Shown here in pieces: positions 4,820 to 61,508 of a stretch of DNA of 64,000 bases (position 1 is its first letter; each line of letters starts with the position of its first letter). The stretch covers positions 1 through 64,000 of the forward strand of contig NZ_FOFI01000001.1 of NCBI RefSeq assembly GCF_900110605.1. The letters run 5' to 3'. This DNA is from Epilithonimonas lactis (lineage in GTDB: Bacteria; Bacteroidota; Bacteroidia; Flavobacteriales; Weeksellaceae). The notes below the pieces were generated by a model that was given only the letters and a program-made list of their open reading frames with translations, searched no databases and was not told the origin of the DNA. A program made the position numbers and the translations under genes.

Positions 4820-4938
4820 TTGGGGCGTATCCCTCGCCAACACTTGGGCCAGCCGCTCGGGTCGGGCTATCCACTACTATCTTCTACTTGCCTGGCAAGG
4901 CAAGCAGAAGGATATCCGTTACTATCCCTTACGCAGGA
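4820..4938 (-). repeat. Intergenic hairpin repeat, copy B
   Basis: Read on the minus strand: GGGATAGTAACGGATATCC, a variable self-complementary tip (plus CTTCTACTTGCC / GGCAAGCAGAAG), then GATAGTAGTGGATAGCCCG, a CCCGAGCGG block, and a tail GGCGAGGGATACGCCCC. Copy C at 18041-18170 has the same order of conserved blocks around a different tip, and copy D is shorter. The unit is flanked by genes on the same strand. I do not recognise a named family. Confidence 0.75.
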
Positions 4939-4957
4939 TTCGTCTTCCGATTGAAAT

Positions 4958-17874: not shown

Positions 17875-18040
17875 AAAAATTTGGTTTAAAGTTAAGAGAT
17901 TCAAGGTTTAAGGTTCAGCGATGTCAACTTTGAATTGTTGAACTTAGAACTTTGAATTTTCGAGTGCAAAGATAATGTTTTGATGGGAATTAATTTGATT
18001 GATATGGAAAGGTTTTTTTGATTGAGAAATCGTCAATCGA

Positions 18041-18170
18041 GGCGAAGCGCGTGAGGGATAGTAGTGGATATCCTTTTTTTGGCGGATGGAATTTGCGGAT
18101 GGGAAAAAAGATAGTAACGGATAGCCCGGCCCGAGCGGTGGGAGAAGCGTTGGCGAGGGACACGCCCTAA
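18041..18170 (+). repeat. Intergenic hairpin repeat, copy C
   Basis: GCGTGAGGGATAGTAGTGG, ATATCC, a T-run, a variable tip, an A-run, GATAGTAACGGATAGCCCGG, a CCCGAGCGG block and a tail GTTGGCGAGGGACACGCCC. The block order matches copy B on its minus strand. The T7/A6 tracts pair as a stem. It lies between aspS and the THX gene, which are divergently oriented. Confidence 0.75.
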
Positions 18171-20967: not shown

Positions 20968-21077
20968 GAGCTTAATCCCGCTATCCGCTATATCTTTTTT
21001 GTCTTCGGCGATTTGTCATTAATAGAACTTTTTTCCAAAAGACAAAAAAGGATGTCGCTACTATCGGGGCTATGGGT
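20968..21077 (-). repeat. Intergenic hairpin repeat, copy D
   Basis: On the minus strand: GATAGTAGCGACATCC, a T-run and TGTC, a variable tip, GACAAAAAAGATATAGCGG, then ATAGCGGGATTAAGC. The perfect TTTTTTGTC / GACAAAAAA stem is as in copy C, but the distal CCCGAGCGG block is missing. It occupies the gap between the DUF2480 gene and lpxB, which are divergent; the rest of that gap holds nothing recognisable. Confidence 0.65.
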
Positions 21078-48445: not shown

Positions 48446-48724
48446 ATAATCAAGTGTTATTTCCGGATGTTCGTTATTTCAATCAAAATAGATGTTTTTG
48501 TATGAAATAGCAATCATTCGTATTATTAACTACAGATAAACCTTCTGAAGTTCAAACAACTGTTACAGCAAATGGGAATAAAATATAAGCTCGCAAGAAA
48601 GCGAGTGAGATTCACAGACTTACAGGTTTTTGAAAGAACAGACATTAGATGTTCAAGATTTCAGTGCTGAAGTTTTGATGAAAAAAGAAACCCACGCCGT
48701 TGTATACACCAGAAAAAATATTCA
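48446..48724. other. Region with coding remnants between fic and the Cas12f-like gene
   Basis: No intact gene. Plus-strand frames hold short plausible peptides: LLTTDKPSEVQTTVTANGNK before a stop, and DVQDFSAEVLMKKETHAVV in the open frame 48609-48791. They look like decayed coding sequence I cannot assign. A hairpin CTCGC-AAGAAA-GCGAG lies at 48590-48605, and a GATTCAC segment follows; these loosely resemble the guide RNA candidate at 50755. A rightward promoter is not obvious. Confidence 0.4.
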
Positions 48725-48791
48725 GTTTCCAGTATTTAGTGAGTGTTCAAAACCTCACCCTACGGGTTTACAAGCACCCTCAATTTTTTAG
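48725..48791 (-). ncRNA. Candidate guide RNA downstream of the Cas12f-like gene
   Basis: Reading on from the Cas12f-like stop codon on the same strand there is a small hairpin (ACCC-GTA-GGGT, plus 48757-48767), a GTGAGGTTTTGAAC tract ending at 48745, then a non-repeated ACTCACTAAATACTGG. TnpB relatives place their guide RNA here: a structured scaffold ending in a conserved tract, then the guide. Only a single copy exists, and no second repeat. The other candidate, at 50755, is the stronger one. Confidence 0.35.
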
Positions 48792-49886
48792 CTATCCGAT
48801 GATCAATTCGATACCGGCCTTTTCTGCTTTGTATTTTATTTTGGTCTGCAATTCATAATAGCTCCAGTTGCGAAGCACAAACTCCTGTTCTTTTGCAATC
48901 CCTATTTTGTCTTCCTGATCTTTAAGAATCAAGGTGCCCGCCTGTTGCCTGATGCAGAAATCAATGAGCATCCGGCTGTACAGATGAAGATGATGACTGA
49001 CAAAACGATTTTCCAGATTCTCGGTCTTGTGCATTGCCTTCTGTTTCCGTTTGGTTCCATTTCCGGAACGGGAATAGGCGACTCCGGCTCGAATCCTTTT
49101 ATTACTGGCCTGTATCGCCAGCCTGCGGTAGAGAAATTCTTCTTTCGAGCCAATATTCATTCTCACATTATTGGCTTTTACAACAATTGGATGTTCTAAT
49201 GATAGGTACGCTTCTGCAATTATTTCGGGTTTTAAACCGTGGTTTTCTTTCTCAAATTCAAAAACAGCCAGCCAAAATATTTTACCATCTTTCAGCTGTA
49301 CCTGTGAATTGCACAGCTTGATCTCTTCTCTTAAAAGGCGTTCCAGTACCAAATGTTTATCCGAGAAATCTCTCCCTAAATAAGTTTTAACAGGAATAGC
49401 AAACATATTGAAGCAAAACGCTTTCTTTTCGGGATTATACTTCATTTTGCTGATGCACTTGACCGGAAGCGGAATGGGAATGTCTTTTTTAAAATTCATT
49501 AAAGATTTTGATCCCTGCCAATAGTCGGCTTTGTTTTTAGAAAAGGTTGATTGAATTGTATTGTTCAGGCATCCCAGAATATCGGTGGGAATTTCTCCCT
49601 TGAATTTGTCAAAGACTAGGCGTGCCGTCGTGTTTGTTTTCGAACGATCGAAGATTCCCATTTCATCTTTTTTTTCATCAGCTAATTTATATTGGATTTT
49701 TTCTGTCAGGTAAAAAAAATCCTTGATCATTTCCTGTAGATACAGATGGGAAACAATTAAATTAGCCGCACGGAAGCAGCGGTTCTGATACCGGTAAAGC
49801 TTTTCCCACATCTGGCTTTTATCATCAGATGGAACATCAATCACCAGCTGAATTTTTCGGGTCAGGGTTATCGTAGACTTTTCCAT
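48792..49886 (-). CDS. Nuclease-dead Cas12f/TnpB-like RNA-guided protein
   Basis: A 364-residue Cas12f/TnpB-like protein. An N-terminal helical/wedge region (about 1-140) precedes a RuvC-like half. The motif-I strand reads AEAYLSLEHPIVV at 224-236, so the catalytic Asp is Tyr227. Motif II reads GTLILKDQEDK at 317-327, so the Glu is Lys322. The bridge segment NWSYYELQTKIKYKAEKAG at 340-358 is well conserved, but the protein stops at 364, before the zinc finger and the third RuvC Asp. It should bind guide RNA and DNA but not cut. The ATG at 49886 lies one base after the sigma stop; the frame opens 34 codons earlier, inside the sigma gene. No transposase is adjacent. RNA-guided recruitment of the sigma factor is the inference. 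Confidence 0.85.
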   Translation of the reverse strand: MEKSTITLTRKIQLVIDVPSDDKSQMWEKLYRYQNRCFRAANLIVSHLYLQEMIKDFFYLTEKIQYKLADEKKDEMGIFDRSKTNTTARLVFDKFKGEIPTDILGCLNNTIQSTFSKNKADYWQGSKSLMNFKKDIPIPLPVKCISKMKYNPEKKAFCFNMFAIPVKTYLGRDFSDKHLVLERLLREEIKLCNSQVQLKDGKIFWLAVFEFEKENHGLKPEIIAEAYLSLEHPIVVKANNVRMNIGSKEEFLYRRLAIQASNKRIRAGVAYSRSGNGTKRKQKAMHKTENLENRFVSHHLHLYSRMLIDFCIRQQAGTLILKDQEDKIGIAKEQEFVLRNWSYYELQTKIKYKAEKAGIELIIG

Positions 49887-49887
49887 A

Positions 49888-50703
49888 TTAAAGCGGTATT
49901 TTAGAGCAGTTTTGATTTTGCAGTTGCTGATAGGCGTACAGAAATTCCCGATGGACTTCTTTTTCCGGTAGTTTGAGTTCTTTTGCAATCACTGCAAAAG
50001 AAGATTTCTGTTCAAACCGTCTTTTGATAATATCGAGTTGCTGATTGCTGAGTTTTTCTGTCTGCTTTTCTTTATCAAAAACTTTTTCCTGTGACTGCTC
50101 AAAAGAAGTTACTTTAAGAATTTTACGAAGATCATTTATGGCTTTGCTCACCTCCGTGCTTATGCTGGTCACACTGCTCCCCATAGCTTCTGCGATAGAT
50201 TTGTACTGAAAACCATATTCCAGACAGAGTTCTATCAGATGTTTTCTTTTGGGGTTTAGAACGGGTAGGACCTTTGTTATTTCATCAAATTTTTTTTGAT
50301 CGGATTCATGGCTATGTAAAAACTCTTTATCTTTTAAAGGATCATAACCTGCAAGATACTCCTGATAATTCTCAAAACTGTCAAGAGAAGCCATCAGGCG
50401 GGTGAATTTATTTCTTGGCGCAGTCACATATGCGATACAATCCCTTTTCATCACAAAGCGTAGAAAGCCGATGATATGATCAGGCGATTCAATGGTGTCG
50501 CGGTGTAGCCACAATTTTAGGAAGGTATCCTGAACAATCGTGTCTACTACAAAATCATCTTTCAATACCTGCAATCCAAGCCAGAAAAGAAGTCTTTTGT
50601 GGCGTAGATGAATGTGTTCCAGAGCGGTCGGATTGCCTTTTTTCAGCAATTCGTACAACTGAAGATTGCTCAGCTTTCGGGGCAAAGAGTCTGTTCTTTT
50701 CAT
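49888..50703 (-). CDS. ECF-like sigma factor paired with the Cas12f-like protein
   Basis: A 271-residue sigma-70 family protein, about 90 residues longer than ECF factors. Region 2 is at 24-93 (VVDTIVQDTFLKLWLHRDT, IIGFLRFVMKRDCIAYV). Region 4 is at 146-196 (KHLIELCLEYGFQYKSIAEA, MGSSVTSISTEVSKAIN). A C-terminal extension holds a second helix-turn-helix-like block at 216-262 (LSNQQLDIIKRRFEQKSSF, VIAKELKLPEKEV). The stop lies one base before the Cas12f-like ATG, so the two form an operon. The extension is a candidate contact with the Cas12f-like protein or RNA polymerase. No anti-sigma gene is present. Confidence 0.87.
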   Translation of the reverse strand: MKRTDSLPRKLSNLQLYELLKKGNPTALEHIHLRHKRLLFWLGLQVLKDDFVVDTIVQDTFLKLWLHRDTIESPDHIIGFLRFVMKRDCIAYVTAPRNKFTRLMASLDSFENYQEYLAGYDPLKDKEFLHSHESDQKKFDEITKVLPVLNPKRKHLIELCLEYGFQYKSIAEAMGSSVTSISTEVSKAINDLRKILKVTSFEQSQEKVFDKEKQTEKLSNQQLDIIKRRFEQKSSFAVIAKELKLPEKEVHREFLYAYQQLQNQNCSKIPL

Positions 50704-50754
50704 AAGCAGCGGTTTTAGCTAATTATTGCTAGAAGGAACTGTTGAAATCTATAA

Positions 50755-50849
50755 GGTTGAATTCTTTGTACCATTCAAAACATTATCTAACTAAATCTCG
50801 CCCAAAAGAAAGAGGGCGTGGAATTCAACTCACATCATTAGAGGCACTG
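50755..50849 (+). ncRNA. Candidate single guide RNA upstream of the sigma gene
   Basis: GGTTGAATTC (50755-50764) and GAATTCAAC (50821-50829) are perfectly complementary and enclose a small hairpin CGCCC (50799-50803) / GGGCG (50814-50818). The 3' arm GTGGAATTCAAC resembles the 3' end of Cas12f CRISPR repeats (GGAATGCAAC type), after which the spacer begins. The following 20 bases (TCACATCATTAGAGGCACTG) would be the guide. Only one copy exists, so this is a fused single-guide form, not an array. It is divergent from the sigma gene; a promoter for it is not clear. The reverse strand is symmetric enough that orientation is not certain. Confidence 0.5.
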
Positions 50850-51016
50850 GTGTTCCCGTGTACAGTGAGCGTAAGCCGCGGGCAAATTTATTTATCTTAT
50901 CGTACACATAAAAATTACCAGTTTTCTAATGCGAGATTCTAATCAATTGCTTCAATGTTTTAATTCTATTGGAATAATTGAATTTTATTATTAGCAAATG
51001 TAGAAAAAAACATCAT

Positions 51017-51067: not shown

Positions 51068-51304
51068 ATGGCTGGACTCAACGAGGAAGATATATTGCTA
51101 AAAAATAAAATTGCTGATCGAATTAAGTTTCTTAGGGCCAGAACTGGTTTGTCACAATCTGAATTTGCTAAAAAATTCGAAATCGATAGGCAGATATTAA
51201 ATCGATGGGAAAGTAAAAACAATAAAAGAGGATTGACTATTTATACAATATCGAAATTTTGTGATTTCGTTGGAATTTCTTTAAAAGATTTTTTTGATTT
51301 TTAA
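51068..51304 (+). CDS. XRE-family transcriptional regulator
   Basis: A 78-residue regulator that is almost entirely one HTH-XRE domain: IADRIKFLRARTGLSQSEFA, KKFEIDRQILNRWES, then SKFCDFVGISLKDFFDF. It resembles controller (C) proteins of restriction systems and phage-type repressors. I chose the ATG at 51068, after the palindrome, over the upstream ATG at 50978, whose extra 30 residues cover the operator. It is the first gene before the defence cargo, separated from the WYL gene by a terminator. Confidence 0.8.
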   Translation: MAGLNEEDILLKNKIADRIKFLRARTGLSQSEFAKKFEIDRQILNRWESKNNKRGLTIYTISKFCDFVGISLKDFFDF

Positions 51305-51591: not shown

Positions 51592-52581
51592 ATGGCAACC
51601 AACAAAAACGCACAACTCCGTTACAAAGCGCTAGATTATTGCTTTTCTAATCCATATAAGAAGTTTTTTATTGATGATCTAATTGGATATTGTTCTCAAA
51701 TTTTGTCAGAACATTATGCAGATGAAACTACAGTTTCCCGTCGCCAGATTTTGATGGATTTAGATTTTATGAAAAGCTTAGCAGGCTATGAGGCTCCTAT
51801 TGAATCATACAAAGAAGGGAGAAAAACATATTATCGATATTCAGAAAAAGATTTTTCTATTCTGAAAAAACCACTAAACCCTTCGGAACTAAACACACTG
51901 AATGAAGCTCTTGAAACACTTGGTAGGATGAATTCTCTTCCCGGTTTTGATTGGATAAATTCTTTACAGACCAAATTGAGATCTGGATTGAATTTAGACA
52001 AAGAAAATCATCAAATTATCAATTTTGAAGAGAATGAATTTTTAAAAGGTTTAGAATTTTTGAACGTTTTGTATCAATATATTTCTCAAAATCAATCATT
52101 AGAAATTAGCTACAAAAGTTTCAAATCTGACAAAGAATCCCAATTTACGATTTCGCCCTATTATTTAAAGCAATACAATAATCGCTGGTTTTTGTTCGGG
52201 TGGAATCATAAGTATTTAAACATTCAAAATTTAGCTTTAGACAGAATCATTGCTGTTGAAAATTCAGAAAAAACTTTCATTGATAATGAAATAAACTTTG
52301 ATGAATATTTTGAAGACATCATTGGCGTAAGTAATAATCTTGCAGAAGAAACAGTCAAAATCACAATAGAACTTTCTGATAATATTATCCCATACATTGC
52401 CTCAAAACCAGTTCACGGTTCTCAATTGATTAAAGAAAATATTCTTTTCTTAAATGTAAAAATCAATTATGAATTGGAGTCACTTATCCTTTCCTACGGC
52501 GAATATATGAAAGTTTTGGAGCCAGAGATTCTCAGGGGAAAAATCAAAAACCGCATTCATCAAATGAACTTGAAATATTAG
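51592..52581 (+). CDS. WYL-domain transcriptional regulator
   Basis: A 329-residue regulator. The N-terminal region holds a winged helix-like segment (YCSQILSEHYADETTVSRRQ, about 20-60). The WYL domain spans about 160-260 (LEISYKSFKSDKESQFTISP, YYLKQYNNRWFLFGWNHKY) with the ligand-binding surface of the family, and a WCX-like C-terminus follows. WYL proteins sense nucleic acids or nucleotides and often control phage-defence genes. It lies 46 bases before the DruH-like gene in the same direction. Confidence 0.9.
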   Translation: MATNKNAQLRYKALDYCFSNPYKKFFIDDLIGYCSQILSEHYADETTVSRRQILMDLDFMKSLAGYEAPIESYKEGRKTYYRYSEKDFSILKKPLNPSELNTLNEALETLGRMNSLPGFDWINSLQTKLRSGLNLDKENHQIINFEENEFLKGLEFLNVLYQYISQNQSLEISYKSFKSDKESQFTISPYYLKQYNNRWFLFGWNHKYLNIQNLALDRIIAVENSEKTFIDNEINFDEYFEDIIGVSNNLAEETVKITIELSDNIIPYIASKPVHGSQLIKENILFLNVKINYELESLILSYGEYMKVLEPEILRGKIKNRIHQMNLKY

Positions 52582-52627
52582 TGCACATCTGCTGCATAGA
52601 TAGAATATAATATTGTAAAAAATAAAG

Positions 52628-55600
52628 ATGAGCGAATTCGATAAGATCTTAACGTCCAGAAATATTCAAAAGTATTCTGGAGATCCATTATGGAAATTTC
52701 AGTTGTCAAATAATGAGTTTAGTCAATTGAAAACATCTTTTTCACTCAGTGAAAATAAAAATAAGATAAATCCGGTAGATTGCGCATTGTATTTTGCCGA
52801 ATGGTGGAAGCGTTGCTACAACGGCGGAAAACCAAGCAAGGAAATCATCTTTCAATCATTAGGAATCAACCTCGAATCTGTAATCGACTGCGATGAATTC
52901 TACAAAAAAGCCAAAATAGGCGCAGAAATACTCGGTGTAAAATGGTTGAAGAAGCAAAATATTTTATTTTTCAGAACATTACTTCTGCAGGGTGGACTTC
53001 CAATTTTGCATATTTCCGAAAATCAAGGAAGTTACAAAAATTTCCTTTTGGCAGTGCTAGAAGAGCAACCAGAATCGATTGAAGATTTTATGTTTCAACC
53101 ACAAATTATTAATCTTTTACCCCCTTCCAGCAGAAATGATATTGTTTATGAAAACTGTTTGGAAATTGTAAAATCAATTCTGAATGACGAAACAACTTAC
53201 GATGATCTTCTAAATTCTAATGTTGCAATTAAAAAAATAAACAAGGAGCTAAGGGAAAGAAAAACGCATTTACAAAAAAAGCAACGAGCTTCTAAAATTC
53301 AGAATTACTGGATTCTAAACATTGATCCCAAAAAACTAAAACTAAGTCTACGTCTGGGTCTAGCAGATAGTTACACAAAAGAGGTATTGGAACATATTTT
53401 AGGTTTGGAAATTGTTGAGAAAAGCAATCATTTTTTCATCAATGATCAATTGGTTTGCGTTTTTCAAAAGATGCTAAGCGGAAATTACAAAACAGAGTGG
53501 AACAACCGCCTTGCTCAGGAATGGACAAGGGATACTCTTTTACCAAATTGCTACATAATAGTCAATAATAACAGATTTGAGGTAAAAGATTTTATAACCA
53601 CAGCTCCAGATTTTTCTGAACCTAGTTTGTGGGTGCCATTTTCTGATAATGAATGGCGGCTTATAAAAGGTAACTCTACAAGTAGTGAAATTGCAGCAAT
53701 TTTATCCCCCGAAAGTTGGAAATCAAAACAGGAGCCTGAATTGTTTAATCTATTCGACACAAACTTCAATTGGATAAAATTTGAAGGTCAGACAGAAATA
53801 AGCAATGAGTTTTATACAAGACATTTTATCAGCAATGTATCTTCTTTTGATTGGACAATTGTAAGTCAAATGCCAAAATGGATGTTTAAGGCCAAGATGG
53901 TTGTTGTACAAAATGTACCCAAAATAATTGTTTATAATGATCAAAATGAAGCTTTAAAAAGTAGCGATTATGAAGTTTTTATCAAGCATAAATCATTCGA
54001 AATTTGGAAAACTATCAACGAATTGAATCATCTTCCGCTTGGCTGCATTGATGTGAAAATTGTAAATGACCAAACTACAGCTTATGATTGTTTCTATAAT
54101 ATTGGAAATCTCAGAATAGATTACTCCAATCAGAATATTTCTTCAGCAGAATTATCTTGTTCAAATAACAATTTTGATTTCAAAATTAAAGAAACACCGA
54201 TCTTGAAAGTCTTTGAACAAAGTAAAAATCGTGCGTATAAGCTTTCTGTAGAAACGAAATTTAACAAAATTCCAAACAGCATACTTGCGAGTTTAAGAAT
54301 AGGAAATTCCAAAAGTCTGCATTTTGAGATTGTTTGTCCGTTTACTGGAATTACTTTAATAGATCAAGAAGGGAAAATAATTCTTGAGGAATCACAACTT
54401 ACATTTAATCATTTGCACGGCATCAGGATTTTGAGCGAGAGTGAGGAATCTGTTATTATAAAATTTAAAAATATTCTAAGACCAGAGGTTATAATATCCA
54501 AAGAATTACGGCTAAAAATACAACCTTTGATTTATTTTAAAGATGAACTTCTGCGTCTGTATTTCTTGGCAGATGCTATGAACCACGAAAATATGTTGAG
54601 CATCGAGCTTGAAAAAAATGGCGTCTCTAAACAATATTTTCTGAAAGGCTTTACACACACTTTGAATGTAGAAAATCAATTTCAGGGAAAACTGAACTTG
54701 TGGAATTCCGAAGATGATTTGTCCTTATATGCAGTTCCGCTCAATTGTTCGGCAGAAAATATTAGCCTAATTCCTTTGTTAAAAGAATCGGAAGATTACA
54801 AAATACCGAAAACTAACTTTACAAATCAATACATCATTATTTCTTCTTACGAAAAAAACAGACATCTGATGCCTAGATTTGTGAGCACAGATAATCAATT
54901 CAAAAGTCTCCAAAAGAATGAAAGAATTGAGTTGTACCATCATAAGCTTGAAACTTCTGACTTCAAATCTGAAATTTGGAAAGAGATATTGGCTTATTTC
55001 AATATCTGTATCAATCAAAATATTCCATTTTCAACTTTCGATCAGTTGAGAGCTGTTTCTCGGAGTTCAGCTGTCGCATCGAGAGCGTTTTTCTTTTTAG
55101 GAATTAATCAAATTAACACAGATGAATTTATACAGAAAATGATTCCAGAATTAGAAACAGATTTGGGATTTTGCTTCCACTGGATTAGAAAAGATGATTG
55201 GCACGATGCAATTAATGAAGTTGCTCAATTTATCGGAGAAGAATATTTCAGAAATGTGATTGCATTATTTTCGAATTATATGAATGAAAATGACTTGGGC
55301 GAGATGATTCAATTTTTGAATGGTCAAAGAATTTTTACAGATAAAGTTTATAATCCTTTCATTAATCAAATAAGATCTGATTTAGGAGAGCGTGTTTTGA
55401 AAGAATTACCAGATATGAAACCTAATGTAAATGATTATTATAATATTCCAAACAATGAGTATGGTAAGTTTTTTCTGCTGATCAAAGCACCAATTGCCGT
55501 GGCAGAATCTATAAAAAATGTCCAGAAAGAATTTCCTATTTGGGGCGGAAATGATTTTCGGGAGCAGATTAGGAGGAATATTCAGTACGCGCAGTATCTA

Positions 55601-55651
55601 TCTCCAGAATTTTACAACAGAATAATTTTACAAGTATTATCGCAAAACTAA
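52628..55651 (+). CDS. Large DruH-like defence protein
   Basis: A 1007-residue protein without a domain I recognise from motifs. It has no transmembrane helices or signal peptide and is rich in Asn, Ile, Lys and Glu. It sits directly before a DruE-type helicase (4-base gap), the arrangement of type III Druantia, where DruH is a large unknown protein. The assignment rests on position and size. The ORF reads cleanly from ATG at 52628 with the WYL regulator upstream. Confidence 0.6.
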
Positions 55652-55655
55652 AACT

Positions 55656-58600
55656 ATGAACTTCAAAAATTTTTACACAAAAGCAGAAAACCGTTTGACG
55701 GATGCAATCCTTTCTCTTTGGGCAACTGGGGACAAAGAAATGCAGGATTATTTTAAATCCATTTTATCCCAAGAACCAATAATGGCAGATGCGGTTTTCC
55801 AAGCAATGTTTCCTTGGGAGCAGTCTCATATAGATTTTCAAAATACCAATTTCTTATATGGTACCAATTTTATAAAATCTTTGGATTCAATTAGAAATCC
55901 CGAATTTCAGTTCCCTAAAGACAGATTCCCGTACAAGCACCAGATAGAAAGCTGGCAATCTTTGTTGCTAGACAAAAAGTCTATAGCTGTGACTACAGGA
56001 ACAGGATCTGGAAAAACAGAATGCTTTATGTTGCCCGTTTTGCAGGATATATATGAAAATAACCGAGATCAGGAAGGCGTCAATGCTATTTTCCTTTATC
56101 CTTTGAATGCGCTTATTGCAAGCCAGCAAAAGAGAATGCACGCTTGGTGTAACGCTTTGGGCGGAATCAATTATGCCTTGCTTACAGGAAGTACAGCCAA
56201 TCGAGAGTCAAGTATTGAAAAGAAAGACAGCGCAATGCCTCAGCTTATTTCCAGAGAACAAATTAGAAATTCGCCACCACAGATTTTATTCACAAATCCT
56301 ACAATGCTGGAATATATGCTGGTACGTAATGCCGATGTGCCAATTATCGAGAAATCTGAAGGTAAATTAAGATGGATTCTTTTGGATGAAGCGCATACCT
56401 TGACGGGATCCAAAGCGGCTGAAATGGCTTTGTTGATCAGAAGAGTTATTTCAGCTTTCAAAGTTAATATTAAGGATGTTCGTTTTGCCATTACTTCTGC
56501 AACAGTCGGAAATGGAAATTCTGACATTTTAAAGAAATTTATGTCCAATTTATGCGGTATCTCAGAAGATCAGATTCAAGTGATCACTGGCTCTAGAGTA
56601 AATGACTTTCCGGATACAGATATTCCAAATATTTCTGAAATATTGAACAAAACTCAAATTAAAAATTTGAGAAACCTTTTATTGAATACTTCAGGATTGA
56701 CCAATTCAGAAATTGGAAATCGTTTAGGTCTTCAAAGTAGAGCAGATCAGATTGAAGCGATGGACATTCTTGCGGATCAAAAAATAAATGGTAAAAACCT
56801 TCTGCCATTGCGAGGTCATTTTTTTACAAGAGGAATTGGTGGTGTTTATGTTTGCACCAATAACAATTGTACAGAACCGGATATTCCCATAAAAGCTTTG
56901 GGCAGAATGACAACCGTAGCAGAAACACATTGCAATTGTGGCTTTCCAATGCTGGAATTAATTGCCTGCAACAGCTGTGGTAATATGATGCTGGAAGGAG
57001 AACTGAAAAACAGTGTTGTCTCTCAAAAAGCAAGCAGCGGATACGAAGCTTTTCAGATTGATGGGGAGAATGAAGATGAAACTTCAAATAACAATTCTTC
57101 TAAAACTGTAAGGTTTATAAAAAATAATAGCAGAGAAAGATTGGTTAATAGAAACTTGATACAATGTTCAATTAATCAGGAAGGAAAGATAATCTATGAA
57201 AATGAAAATCTCTTAAAAATTGATGACTTCAAATGCCCACATTGCGGTAATCAAACTGAAAATTCAATTCATTTCAGGATTTCTTCTGCATTTACCAATC
57301 GGATTCTTTCGGATATTGTTTTAGATCAAACGCAGCCTGCTTCAAGTTTAACAAATAAAACTCTTTACAACGGCAGAAAATACATTTCGTTTACAGACAG
57401 CCGACAAGGGACTGCAAAAATTTCTGCCTTGATTAATATCGATGCGGAAACAGATTGGATCAGGTATCAAGTTTATCATTTGATGATTAGAAAACTTGCG
57501 CAGCAGACAAATAGATTTTCTAATGATCAGCTCCTGCAAGAAAGGGCGTACATAACAGGACAATTGGAAACTGATATTCCTCCTTTTTTAATAGCCGGAT
57601 TGGGAGCCAGATTATCTGAAATAGAGAATTTATTATCGAATGAAAATAACGTGAATCATTCATTGACCCGAACGAAATGGCAGGATATCATCGATAAAAT
57701 GATGACAGAAAACGGATTCAAAACATTGTTTATAAAGGCTGCAAAAGGAAAAGATTTTGAATTGGATGGTAAAATATATGCCAAAGGTTTGTTGTACAGT
57801 CAGTTTGCAAGAAGAATCGGTAGGGAAAGATCATTAGAGAATCTTGGATTGGTCAATATTGTTTATCCGGAATTGGATTCTGTCATTTTACCAGAGGAAG
57901 CATCGTTGCTGAACATCAATCTGCAAGAATGGAAAACTTTACTCAAAATTGCGGCGGATTATGTTATTCGTGATGGTTTCAACTTTACTTTTGATGACAG
58001 GATGCGTCTATTTAATTCAAAATTATACCATCCTAAATTAATCTACCCAAGCGCATCCGCGCAGAAGAATAGCTGGAAATTATATAAAGCAGATTCAAAA
58101 ACGCAACCAAGATTTGTCCTATTGATTTGCGCTGGTTTAGGATGGTACAACCCTGAAGATATTGATGCGGTAAGAGAAAGTCAGCTAAATCATTTACTAG
58201 AAAAAATCTGGAAAACCTTGCAGGAAAAGATTCTTACCAAAGATGGAGACGGTTATAAGCTGGATTTTTTTACCCATACGCAACTTGAGATTGCTGGCAA
58301 AGAAGTTCTTTGCCCTGTCACAAACAGGCTTTTAGATAATACTTTTAGAGATTATACACCTTGGATAAAAGGTTCGCTGAGCGAAGAAAATATTCAGAAT
58401 TACAAAATCCAAAGTCAGACAGATATTCAGATGCCTATTTATCCGTATCCATTTCATTTGTCAGATCAGAATGAAGATTTACACGATGATATTATTAATA
58501 GTTGGATTGAAGAAAATAGGCTAGAAGCCAGAAACAAAGGTTTGTGGAATGATTTGCACGAGAGGATATTTGATAAGGAAAAACTATATCTAGCAGGAGA

Positions 58601-61508
58601 ACATTCTGCACAGCAGAAAAAATCCCGATTGGTAGAGTTGGAAGACCAGTTTGAAAAGGGAGAGATCAATGTTCTGAGCTGTTCCACAACTATGGAAATG
58701 GGAGTTGATATTGGCGGAATCTCGGCGGTTGTGATGAGCAATGTTCCTCCAATGCCGGCCAACTATTTGCAAAGAGCCGGACGAGCCGGGCGGCGCGCAG
58801 AAAACAAATCATTGGCGCTCACTTTTTGCGCACCCAATCCAATTGGTCTGAGAACGATGGCTCAGCCAAAATGGGCTTTGGAGCATCCCATCGCTCCACC
58901 TATTTTGAAATTTGACAGCAAGAATATTGTTTTGAGACACACCAATTCATTGTTATTTGGGCTCTTCATCCGAAACAATGCGAACAGAGGATTGAACATC
59001 AAAGAAAATATAGAAAAATTCTTTCTGGGAGAGCAACCCAATCTTGGACAGAACTTTTTGAATTGGCTGTCTGATCTTTCTGTTGATAATTACAAAGATG
59101 ACCTCGTATATCTGATAAAAGGAACATCACTTGAAAATACAGATCCCATCCAGTTGAAGTTCTCTGTTTACGATAATTTTATGAAAACCGCAAGAGGGGT
59201 TACAGGACAGTTTACAAGCTTTGAAGAAAAGCTTAGAATCTTGTTGGAAACTGATGGAGAAAATAGTGCAGCCTATAAAGCCATAAAGTACCGCAAAAGC
59301 CAGTTTCTGAAAAAACATATTCTTACCTACCTAGCAGAAAATGGGTTTTTACCAAATGCTGGTTTACCAACTGGCATCGTAGATTTTGAAAAAACAGTTT
59401 ATGATGACATTAAAAATGATAACTCGAAAGTAACAGAAAATCCAAGTTATCCGCTTACTAGTGCATTGACGGAGTTTGCGCCCGGCAACAGCGTGTTGAT
59501 AGACGGACTCAGCTATATGTCTGCCGGAATCATAATGAAGAATAATTGGGGACAAGAGGGAGAACGAAATGCAGTACAGGCTTGCAAAAATTGTGGCTAC
59601 CAAAGAATCATTTCCTTAAGTAATCAATTAAATGATAATTGCGATCATTGCTACGCTACAGATTCATTAATTGGTATCGACCTTGGAGAATATCGTGGAA
59701 AGCTGACAGAATTGGTGGAGCCTGTGGGATTTGCAGTCGATCTTTTCAAAAAACCTACGCGCGTGATCTCGGAAAAATCTAAACCACAATATTTAGAGCC
59801 ACTGCTGTTGAATATCAAGCCTTGGAATCAGGATCAAAGCAGTATTGTAGATGTACGTTCTACAGATGATGACAGATCAGAAATCTTGTTTTACAATATG
59901 GGAGATGGAGAAGGTTACAGCCTTTGTACCAGTTGCGGTAGGGTAGAAACTGCTAGTGATAAGTTAGTTGGTCACAGCAGACTGCGTGGTGGTAAAAATA
60001 ACGATGGCGAAAGTTTTTGCGATGGGAAGTCAAAAGACCACATCATTTTAGGAGCCAGATTCAAAACAGATTTTACAGAAATTCGCCTTTTGAATAGAGA
60101 AGGACAAAGAGTAAATGACAAGACGTTGATGTACACTTTGGGAGTCGTCTTCACAAAATCTTTGGCAGAATTTCTTGCCATAGAAGAAAGTGAATTAGGA
60201 TTCGGAATCAAAACTTACAGCGGCTATCAAACCATTTTTATCTACGACACAGCAAAAGGTGGAGCAGGCTATTCTTCTCAGTTTTCTATGTACACCAAAG
60301 AAGTACTCACGAAAGCTTACCAGGCTTTGGGTTGTGATTGTAACAAAGCCTGCACAAAATGTTTGATAGACAGATCTTCCCAATGGCATTTGGAAGATTT
60401 GGATAGAAATGTTGCCCGTGACTGGCTTCGGTTTGCTAATGAAAATCAGGTGCCGAAAAATTTACAAAATACAGGACTTTCTATTTCCAATATTTTTGGA
60501 ACATTGACTAATGAAGTCATCAGCCTGCAATACCATCAGGGCGTGAAAGAGATCAACATCCATATCAACAACCAAGTTTCTAGTTGGGATATTGATAAAT
60601 TATACGATCTGGAAGAATTCAAGAGAAACAGAATCAAAATAAATCTGATTATAGAAGGCAGTTTAGACTGCAATAACCATCAGGAAAAACTCTCTATCCA
60701 CAAGCTGGAAGTAGGATATCAATTAAAAAAAGGAATCGAAGACAAAATAGCAGATTATCCTGTTCACTTTTCTGTAATATTGAATGACAATCAGTCGATT
60801 TCTTATATTGCTGAAGCTGATTATCCTTTCTTGGTAGGCGATATTTTGAAAAGTAGAAGCATTACATATTATAAAGTGGGAGGTCAGCAGTTAGCGAATT
60901 ATGCAGACTGTATATTGCCTACTTTCACTGCCAATATCTTTGAAGCAAGAGTGGGATCATTGCCTTTTAATTCCGATAGCAATGATCTTGTATTAGCAAT
61001 GTTTAATAATCTTGAAAACAAAGAGGATTTGATGGACAAAATAAAGAACAGAAACTTTTCTGTAGATTATTTTGATAAGTACAATCAGTCTGAATTTTCT
61101 ATGCGGTTAGTCTTGCAGTTCATAGATCAGATTAAAACGATTTGTGAGATCAAAATTGATGATTTCAAAATTCATTTATCCGAGAACGATTTTAGAAGTA
61201 ACAGAGAACCATATTACATTATAGATAATTACAAAACTATTGTCGATTATGAAAATCATTTACAGCACATCTCGCAAGACTTTGACTTTAATATAGATCT
61301 GGTAAATGAAAATCGTTTGCCTCATTACAGATTTTTCCAATTTAAGAATGATGAGGTGTCTTTTAGCATAAGGATAGACGGTGGAATTTCCCACGGTCTG
61401 AAACCTATAAGTTTTCTGAAATCTGAAGATATGGAATTGGAAAACCTTGTTTTTAAGATCAAAAAAGACATTACTCACGATATCATTTACACCATAAATA
61501 TTGGATAA
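55656..61508 (+). CDS. DruE-type DEAD/DEAH helicase with DUF1998
   Basis: A 1950-residue SF2 helicase. Walker [12 protein letters not shown] lies at about 113-123 and DEAH in [10 protein letters not shown] at about 241-250. The C-terminal helicase half has [15 protein letters not shown] (about 1008) and [15 protein letters not shown] (about 1037). Several zinc-ribbon-like cysteine groups lie in the middle (CNSCG, CPHCGNQ). DUF1998 follows with [15 protein letters not shown] at about 1560. Size, order and the partner upstream match DruE of Druantia, an anti-phage system with DNA-targeting helicase. A dyad and promoter-like box follow the stop. Confidence 0.85.

Follow-up and report, generated by a model that had tools for sequence, protein, structure and literature searches.

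A sigma factor and nuclease-dead Cas12f pair of Epilithonimonas lactis as a probable RNA-guided activator of SusCD operons

That transcription can be initiated under the guidance of an RNA was discovered only very recently. A preprint of 2025 reportedly describes exapted Cas12f homologues that drive RNA-guided transcription, and in its abstract a 5′-G is said to be the target-adjacent motif. What natural RNA-guided transcription systems control is, to our knowledge, an open question. The closest system with known structures is that of Allomuricauda (Flagellimonas) taeanensis, which consists of nuclease-deactivated Cas12f (dCas12f), guide RNA (gRNA) and the sigma factor RpoE (Protein Data Bank, PDB, entries 9n9c, 9n9m, 9n9o and 9n9q); the entries 9n9c and 9n9m, released on 2025-12-24, are entitled "dCas12f-gRNA complex" and "dCas12f-gRNA-DNA complex (partial R-Loop)". 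Here, a stretch of 64,000 nucleotides (nt) of the Epilithonimonas lactis genome was analysed (contig NZ_FOFI01000001.1, in the following called the window), which contains a sigma factor gene followed by a gene for a Cas12f-like protein. An earlier note on this DNA had suggested that the principle of dCas12f-sigma-E pairs may already be known, and the PDB entries are consistent with this. Judged by its homology, the order of its genes, its guide RNA and the context of its predicted target, the window locus is a member of the dCas12f-sigma-E RNA-guided transcription systems. It has full-length homology to dCas12f, a linked RpoE homologue, an inactive RuvC site, a guide RNA with the scaffold of the family, and a predicted target behind a 5′-G upstream of a SusCD operon on contig C5 of the same genome, and it lacks the catalytic RuvC residues of a type V-F CRISPR-Cas system with active Cas12f. 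The locus probably encodes an RNA-guided sigma factor by which SusCD operons and, in many relatives, also its own operon are activated; the window copy has lost its self-target.

The two genes are separated by one base, with dCas12f downstream, just as the earlier note had described, and their homology to the PDB sequences is far beyond chance (E-values in Table 1). The match to 9n9c ("Nuclease-deactivated Cas12f") pairs residues 1-364 of the window protein with residues 1-365, and the match of the sigma factor to 9n9q_C ("RpoE") covers residues 17-262. A protein of A. taeanensis JCM 17757 shares 100% identity with the solved dCas12f, and therefore the locus of this strain (L121) served as a reference. 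In named genomes, a scan yielded 118 relatives of dCas12f, the best 80 of which were analysed as named loci. Of these, 53 with 81-95% identity belong to Chryseobacterium and relatives, and the other 27, mainly from Flavobacteriaceae, have 60-65% identity. The sigma factor gene lies directly upstream of dCas12f in 79 of the 80 loci, and in the 80th the contig begins 30 bases upstream. Such co-occurrence in homologues, on which the earlier note had staked its reading beforehand, is thus borne out.

For the nuclease site, 82 homologues were compared, comprising the 80 named loci and both copies of the window genome. The RuvC-I Asp is replaced in all 82 (Ser in 79, Tyr in the window protein, Thr and Cys in one each), and all homologues have a length of 362-365 codons and therefore end before RuvC-III and the TNB/zinc domain. 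At the RuvC-II position the pairwise alignment of the window dCas12f with its PDB match places a Lys opposite the Glu, and in the multiple alignment a Glu near this position is retained in 78 of the 82 homologues, so that the RuvC-II call depends on the alignment. The alignments show the catalytic loss for two of the three RuvC positions and leave RuvC-II ambiguous; the claim that no catalytic residue is left therefore stands for RuvC-I and RuvC-III. Stop codons were found in 3 of the 82 homologue spans on straight-through reading. When the window copy was compared with the second copy of the genome, dCas12f had a ratio of nonsynonymous to synonymous substitution rates (dN/dS) of 0.077 and the sigma factor one of 0.11. 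Active Cas12f proteins (9nzo, 8hr5, 7wju) match the sequence of the window protein over its C-terminal two thirds, and they were also ranked as similar in fold on the basis of a weak structure model (mean predicted local distance difference test score, pLDDT, of 56.3), the ranking of which served for PDB entry titles only. Unlike active Cas12f, the window protein is devoid of the RuvC-I Asp and of the C-terminal zinc/RuvC-III part. It also resembles TldR, which is presented in an excerpt of one article (PMC13418256) as a nuclease-dead protein of the TnpB/Cas12 group that acts as RNA-guided transcription factor; TldR is described there as a repressor, whereas the window dCas12f has a conserved sigma partner.

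Downstream of dCas12f a conserved RNA was identified, which reads GAGGGTGCTTGTA.ACCC..AGGGTGAGGT..., ends with the terminal TATACAAC and is followed by the guide. The identity of scaffold and guide was deduced because relatives differ strongly after TATACAAC and some of them repeat the scaffold or the scaffold end with new guides; the scaffold itself is conserved across families in the alignment of relatives. A covariance model of the scaffold (R1) was applied, with 150 first-look candidates scored per genome. It revealed two guide RNAs in the window genome, each beside a dCas12f, and no further guide RNA among the 150 of 814 first-look candidates scored. Across 23 genomes of the genus, R1 yielded 15 strong matches in 11 genomes, one per dCas12f place, and six weak matches (E 0.1-0.6), which were treated as chance; dCas12f itself is present in 11 of the 23 genomes at 15 places, one of which is a 75-residue match. 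The first 8 guide bases are identical in all 15 guide RNAs of the genus.

The systems of the window genus have a single guide, and a few relatives have small guide arrays. Three guides each are present in Kaistella soli (L095), a metagenome-assembled genome (L104) and Galbibacter (L139), two in Robertkochia (L124) and in Echinicola (L132 and L136), and at least two in Joostella (L133). The last guide of the array is of the common type or a near variant of it in L095 and L104 (GGCGTGGGCTCA in both), L139 (GGCATGGGCTC) and L124 (GTGTGGGATTAC); in the two Echinicola arrays neither guide is of the common type. For the guides of other than the common type in these arrays (L095, L104, L124, L132, L133, L136 and L139) no targets were found. 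In one copy of Chryseobacterium cucumeris GSE06 (L096), the guide RNA end and the guide are swapped for an unrelated sequence near a contig end.

A structured leader of about 130-150 nt is located upstream of the sigma factor gene in 51 of the 80 named loci, a count that rests on one pattern, by which other leaders may be missed, and in the second system copy of the window genome on contig C9 (L004), the dCas12f of which is 88% identical to the window copy. In a first fold the left arm GATAAGT...GCTCACG pairs with the right arm GCGTGGGCTCACTTATC, and compensatory changes were observed at 12 of the 30 predicted pairs (47 sequences). In a second fold the right arm pairs with the 3′ strand TAAGTTGAGTTCCACGCC, which leads into a T-rich stretch and is terminator-like. 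The second pairing is found in 93.1% of the cells, compared to 35.8-57.5% in slid registers, and includes nine double-change cells, a number as high as in 0 of 500 shuffles, although kinship alone can beat such shuffles. The two predicted folds are mutually exclusive, as in transcription attenuators. The motif TAnnTTTG is present within 120 nt upstream of 90 of 101 leaders (mean of 9.5 in base shuffles); it is given in an excerpt of one article (PMC9723704) as the sigma-A -7 consensus of flavobacteria. No Rfam family was found above its gathering score at the window leader, and around the leaders of L121 and L196 Rfam gave weak sub-threshold names only.

With a model of the leader family (R2) the 23 genomes of the genus were searched, and the leader was detected in 22 of them. 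At E ≤1.1e-5 this amounted to 60 places, 12 beside sigma-dCas12f and 48 standalone; all 48 standalone leaders were retrieved, and five weaker R2 rows were left out. The earlier note had proposed guide RNA candidates on both sides of the gene pair. Its downstream candidate is confirmed by R1, and what lies upstream is a leader of the family that bears the predicted targets. This upstream structure was ruled out as a second guide RNA; it is devoid of the scaffold and is present in genomes without dCas12f.

In sequence, the common guide is identical to the beginning of the leader right arm (GGCGTGGG...). At least 7 contiguous guide bases match the right arm at the aligned position, with a slack of one base, in 35 of the 51 leader-bearing loci, whereas random 20-mers of those loci reached a 7-base match in 2 of 10200 draws. 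The 35 loci comprise 30 from the main script and L065, L066, L068, L069 and L076, for which an earlier scoring gave 7; the guide pattern extracted nothing in these five loci, which have a longer scaffold loop, nor in L096 and L144, and the right-arm pattern of the earlier scoring was unmatched at 21 of the 51 loci. A cruder scan of whole loci (16 bases, at most 3 mismatches) yielded 36 matches, compared to 16 for reversed guides. The base preceding the guide match is a G in 50 of the 51 loci. In the leader of the C9 copy the first 8 guide bases match.

The standalone leaders point to the predicted targets. A SusC/TonB-receptor-like gene follows within 3 kb downstream at 26 of the 48 standalone leaders; its distance from the leader start is 491-605 nt in 19 of these 26, and five show low similarity to SusC (28-33% over less than 300 residues). 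The window genome contains one standalone leader (C5:38374-38522, minus strand). Behind the 5′-G, its right arm G|GCGTGGGTCTCTT agrees with the guide at 13 of 14 bases when counting begins at the first G, and among the other 47 standalone leaders only one, in another genome, equals this match. The predicted target is located about 440 nt before the start of a SusC gene of 1001 amino acids (aa; Plug domain, E 2.4e-22), which is followed by SusD (SusD-like_3, E 9.1e-21). In the carrier genomes 15 of the 21 standalone leaders match the guide of the carrier by at least 7 bases, including at least one in each of the 11 genomes. The earlier note had suggested a genome search for guide matches; the guide alone does not stand out, the 18-base guide without mismatches occurring only in the two guide RNAs of the window genome, and the C5 SusCD leader was found only after the leader family had been modelled. 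Both the likely target and the second genome copy go beyond that note. Its reading as RNA-guided transcription gains support from the homology of the proteins to the solved assembly, the conserved guide RNA and the matches behind a 5′-G before SusCD.

Outside the genus, 12 genomes were searched with R2 and 18 places were retrieved; a SusC-like gene follows in seven of them, sigma-dCas12f in two and another sigma factor in two. Two standalone leaders of Sinomicrobium (L290 and L291) match 16 of 16 guide bases behind CGG, and one of them lies 512 nt before SusC. The A. taeanensis system resembles the window locus in that its dCas12f is 64% identical over the whole length, the sigma factor gene is directly upstream, the scaffold is the same, the same leader precedes the sigma factor gene, and a predicted target is located upstream of SusC behind a G. 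The guides differ, however: that of the window matches the right arm of the leader, whereas that of A. taeanensis (TTGTGGGATA...) has no match to its own leader. The leader that precedes SusC does not match the guide either, and the best-placed match, G|TTGTGGGATACCCG with 10 contiguous guide bases, is outside this leader, 262 nt upstream of SusC. The target pattern was found at 38 places in A. taeanensis, compared to 38 for the reversed pattern, and therefore the match is remarkable for where it lies and not for the number of places found. A further difference is that the window genome has two copies of the system.

Taken together, the following mechanism is proposed. The dCas12f would bind the guide RNA encoded just downstream and would bring the sigma factor and RNA polymerase to guide-matched DNA behind a 5′-G. 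The address would be the right arm of the leader before SusC-SusD operons and, in many relatives, before the sigma-dCas12f operon. Transcription from the ordinary promoter of the leader would probably be stopped early at the leader terminator, whereas transcripts from a guided start downstream of the right arm would be unable to form the terminator. In this way SusCD would be activated in a guide-dependent manner, and the system would be under positive autoregulation wherever the operon's own leader is intact; in the window genome the predicted targets are the C5 SusCD operon and the leader of the second copy on C9. Guided transcription as such is inferred from homology, and binding, recruitment, start site, termination bypass and autoregulation are likewise what we infer for this locus.

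Several observations weigh against RNA-guided activation of SusCD and of the system itself. The right arm of the window leader reads GGCTTACGCTCACT, and therefore self-activation has probably been lost in the window copy. In the window clade the guide runs into a T-rich tail, and the leader match comprises 7-13 bases only. With a 12-base guide and at most one mismatch, 23 places were found in the window genome, two of them the guide RNAs, compared to 16 with the reversed pattern. The 7-base test fails in 16 of the 51 leader-bearing loci: in the A. taeanensis group (L121, L130, L134, L135), Echinicola (L132, L136) and L120, in L101, the target of which is changed, in L096 and L144, from which no guide was extracted, and in L118, L122, L131, L137, L139 and L142, in which 11-13 of 14 bases match but an early mismatch occurs. 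Covariation of guide and self-target is inconsistent; it is seen in L124, but not in L118, L122 and L137. The main caveat is that the leader is present in 11 of the 12 genomes of the genus without dCas12f, and that GCGTGGG is found in 23 of the 27 standalone leaders from these non-carriers compared to 15 of 21 in carriers. The leader is thus equally common and equally conserved without dCas12f. It therefore has a function independent of the system, and the fact that it is conserved cannot be counted as evidence of guiding.

An attenuator-like RNA leader invites the alternative that control takes place at the RNA level, the guide, a copy of the right arm, acting as antiterminator by pairing with the terminator 3′ strand of the leader transcript. 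As the right arm pairs with this strand in 93.1% of the cells, an RNA of the same sequence can do so as well. However, the relatives of dCas12f were solved with DNA in a partial R-loop, in all but one of the 51 loci the base before the match is a G, and the guides of A. taeanensis and Sinomicrobium match behind a G, one site being outside the leader, so that antitermination appears unlikely. Repression of the TldR type is less probable still. A dCas12f bound to the leader could block transcription from the ordinary promoter, as the target is within the transcribed leader, downstream of the TAnnTTTG box in 90 of 101 leaders, and nuclease-dead TnpB relatives (TldR) are described in the excerpt of PMC13418256 as RNA-guided repressors; yet the sigma partner, conserved in 79 of 80 loci, would have no role in a pure roadblock. 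Just as improbable is a relic, i.e., a guide that was once copied from the leader and has another sequence as its present target. The leader's conservation without dCas12f, the short matches and drifted guides of the window clade and the lost target of the window leader would fit this, but all 15 guide RNAs of the genus share the same first 8 guide bases, a matching standalone leader is kept in 11 of 11 carriers, and 16 of 16 bases match in Sinomicrobium. A decaying insertion-sequence remnant without function, which the earlier note had named as the outcome that would undo its reading, is hardly credible in view of the dN/dS values of 0.077 and 0.11, the co-occurrence in 79 of 80 loci and the conserved guide RNA, even though the nuclease site is lost and the segment carries a relaxase.

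RNA-guided activation of SusCD thus remains the preferred reading, and a wider version of it is tentatively put forward. The leader shared by SusCD operons and the sigma-dCas12f system might define an RNA-guided regulon in Flavobacteriia, with a near-universal guide, guided initiation that skips the terminator, and activation of SusCD coupled to positive feedback. Since the leader also occurs in genomes that do not have the system, the sigma-dCas12f module would have taken as its address an RNA control element that was already there. The likely natural addresses can be read from the sequence, namely the leader family before SusCD and the self-address in many relatives. Regulon, autoregulation and terminator bypass become directly testable, and many natural pairs supply data on guide, target, 5′-G and spacing. 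Two features may be new, namely the guide that addresses its own system and the family of attenuator-like leaders; a literature search, in the scope of which the primary A. taeanensis papers did not fall, found no report of the system, of its self-addressing guide or of the leader.

Table 1. Features of the sigma-dCas12f locus, given as positions in the window
Feature	Position	Strand	Evidence or remark
Extracytoplasmic function (ECF)-type sigma factor of 271 aa, encoded by the upstream gene of the pair	49888..50703	-	PDB 9n9q_C RpoE, E 2.4e-77
Nuclease-dead Cas12f, 364 aa	48792..49886	-	PDB 9n9c, E 2e-158; RuvC-I Asp replaced by Tyr
Guide RNA scaffold, GAGGGTG...TATACAAC	48699..48781	-	Alignments of relatives; model R1, 79.5 bits, E 3.2e-16
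Guide GGCGTGGGTTTCTTTTTTCA	48679..48698	-	Starts after scaffold end; 3′ boundary at 48679 nominal
Structured leader upstream of sigma, partly decayed here	50809..50938	-	Model R2, 81.6 bits, E 1.6e-14; covariation in relatives
Former target (right arm), GGCTTACGCTCACT in place of GGCGTGGGCTCACT; 3 leading guide matches	50864..50877	-	
TACATTTG, fits the TAnnTTTG -7 box; leader start 64 nt downstream	50995..51002	-	
Divergent Cro/C1-type helix-turn-helix (HTH) gene	51068..51304	+	Open reading frame (ORF) open from TTG at 50978

The sigma-dCas12f pair of the window is flanked by the ORFs of a Fic protein and of the HTH gene. The segment 44816-50961 is homologous to a segment of C9 and includes relaxase, Fic, guide RNA, dCas12f, sigma factor and leader, the relaxase and Fic domains having been called in the window copy. 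The homology extends past the leader on its promoter side as far as 50961, and the cargo beyond differs between the two copies. A divergent ORF of 60-200 aa begins 20-175 nt upstream of all 51 sigma-linked leaders, compared to 100 of 400 random positions, and a small divergent ORF is also present at 26 of 26 SusC-type leaders. Among 74 distinct divergent proteins, 54 match the Pfam family HTH_26 and 51 match HTH_3 (E ≤0.01). These Cro/C1-type HTH genes are short and very diverse, with variable cargo behind them. It is as if leader and HTH gene formed a shared docking module with variable cargo.

The window cargo (51592-61508) encodes a WYL protein, a DruH-like protein, with a match to DruH over its first 230 residues (E 6.2e-42), and a DEAD helicase of 1950 aa; by its composition, we read it as a Druantia-like defence. 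By eye, the C9 copy adjoins an apparent type I restriction-modification locus. Ten cargo proteins at standalone leaders were compared with PADLOC models, and four matched (E ≤1e-5), i.e., a SIR2/ThsA-like protein, PtuA and two methyltransferases.

A variant leader (GGCGTGGGCGCTCGCTTATT or similar) was observed at L201, L221, L224, L230, L293 and L305, without SusC and in a different gene context; at these loci a small ORF of about 127-149 aa begins 185 nt from the leader. At L292 and L301 the leader precedes sigma factors that are 25-27% identical to the window sigma factor, and a dCas12f was not noted there. Close to the start of the window an Rfam scan detected 5S rRNA and RNase P RNA, and three Flavo-1 RNAs (RF01705) are located in the window at 4856-4943, 18036-18135 and 20970-21075.

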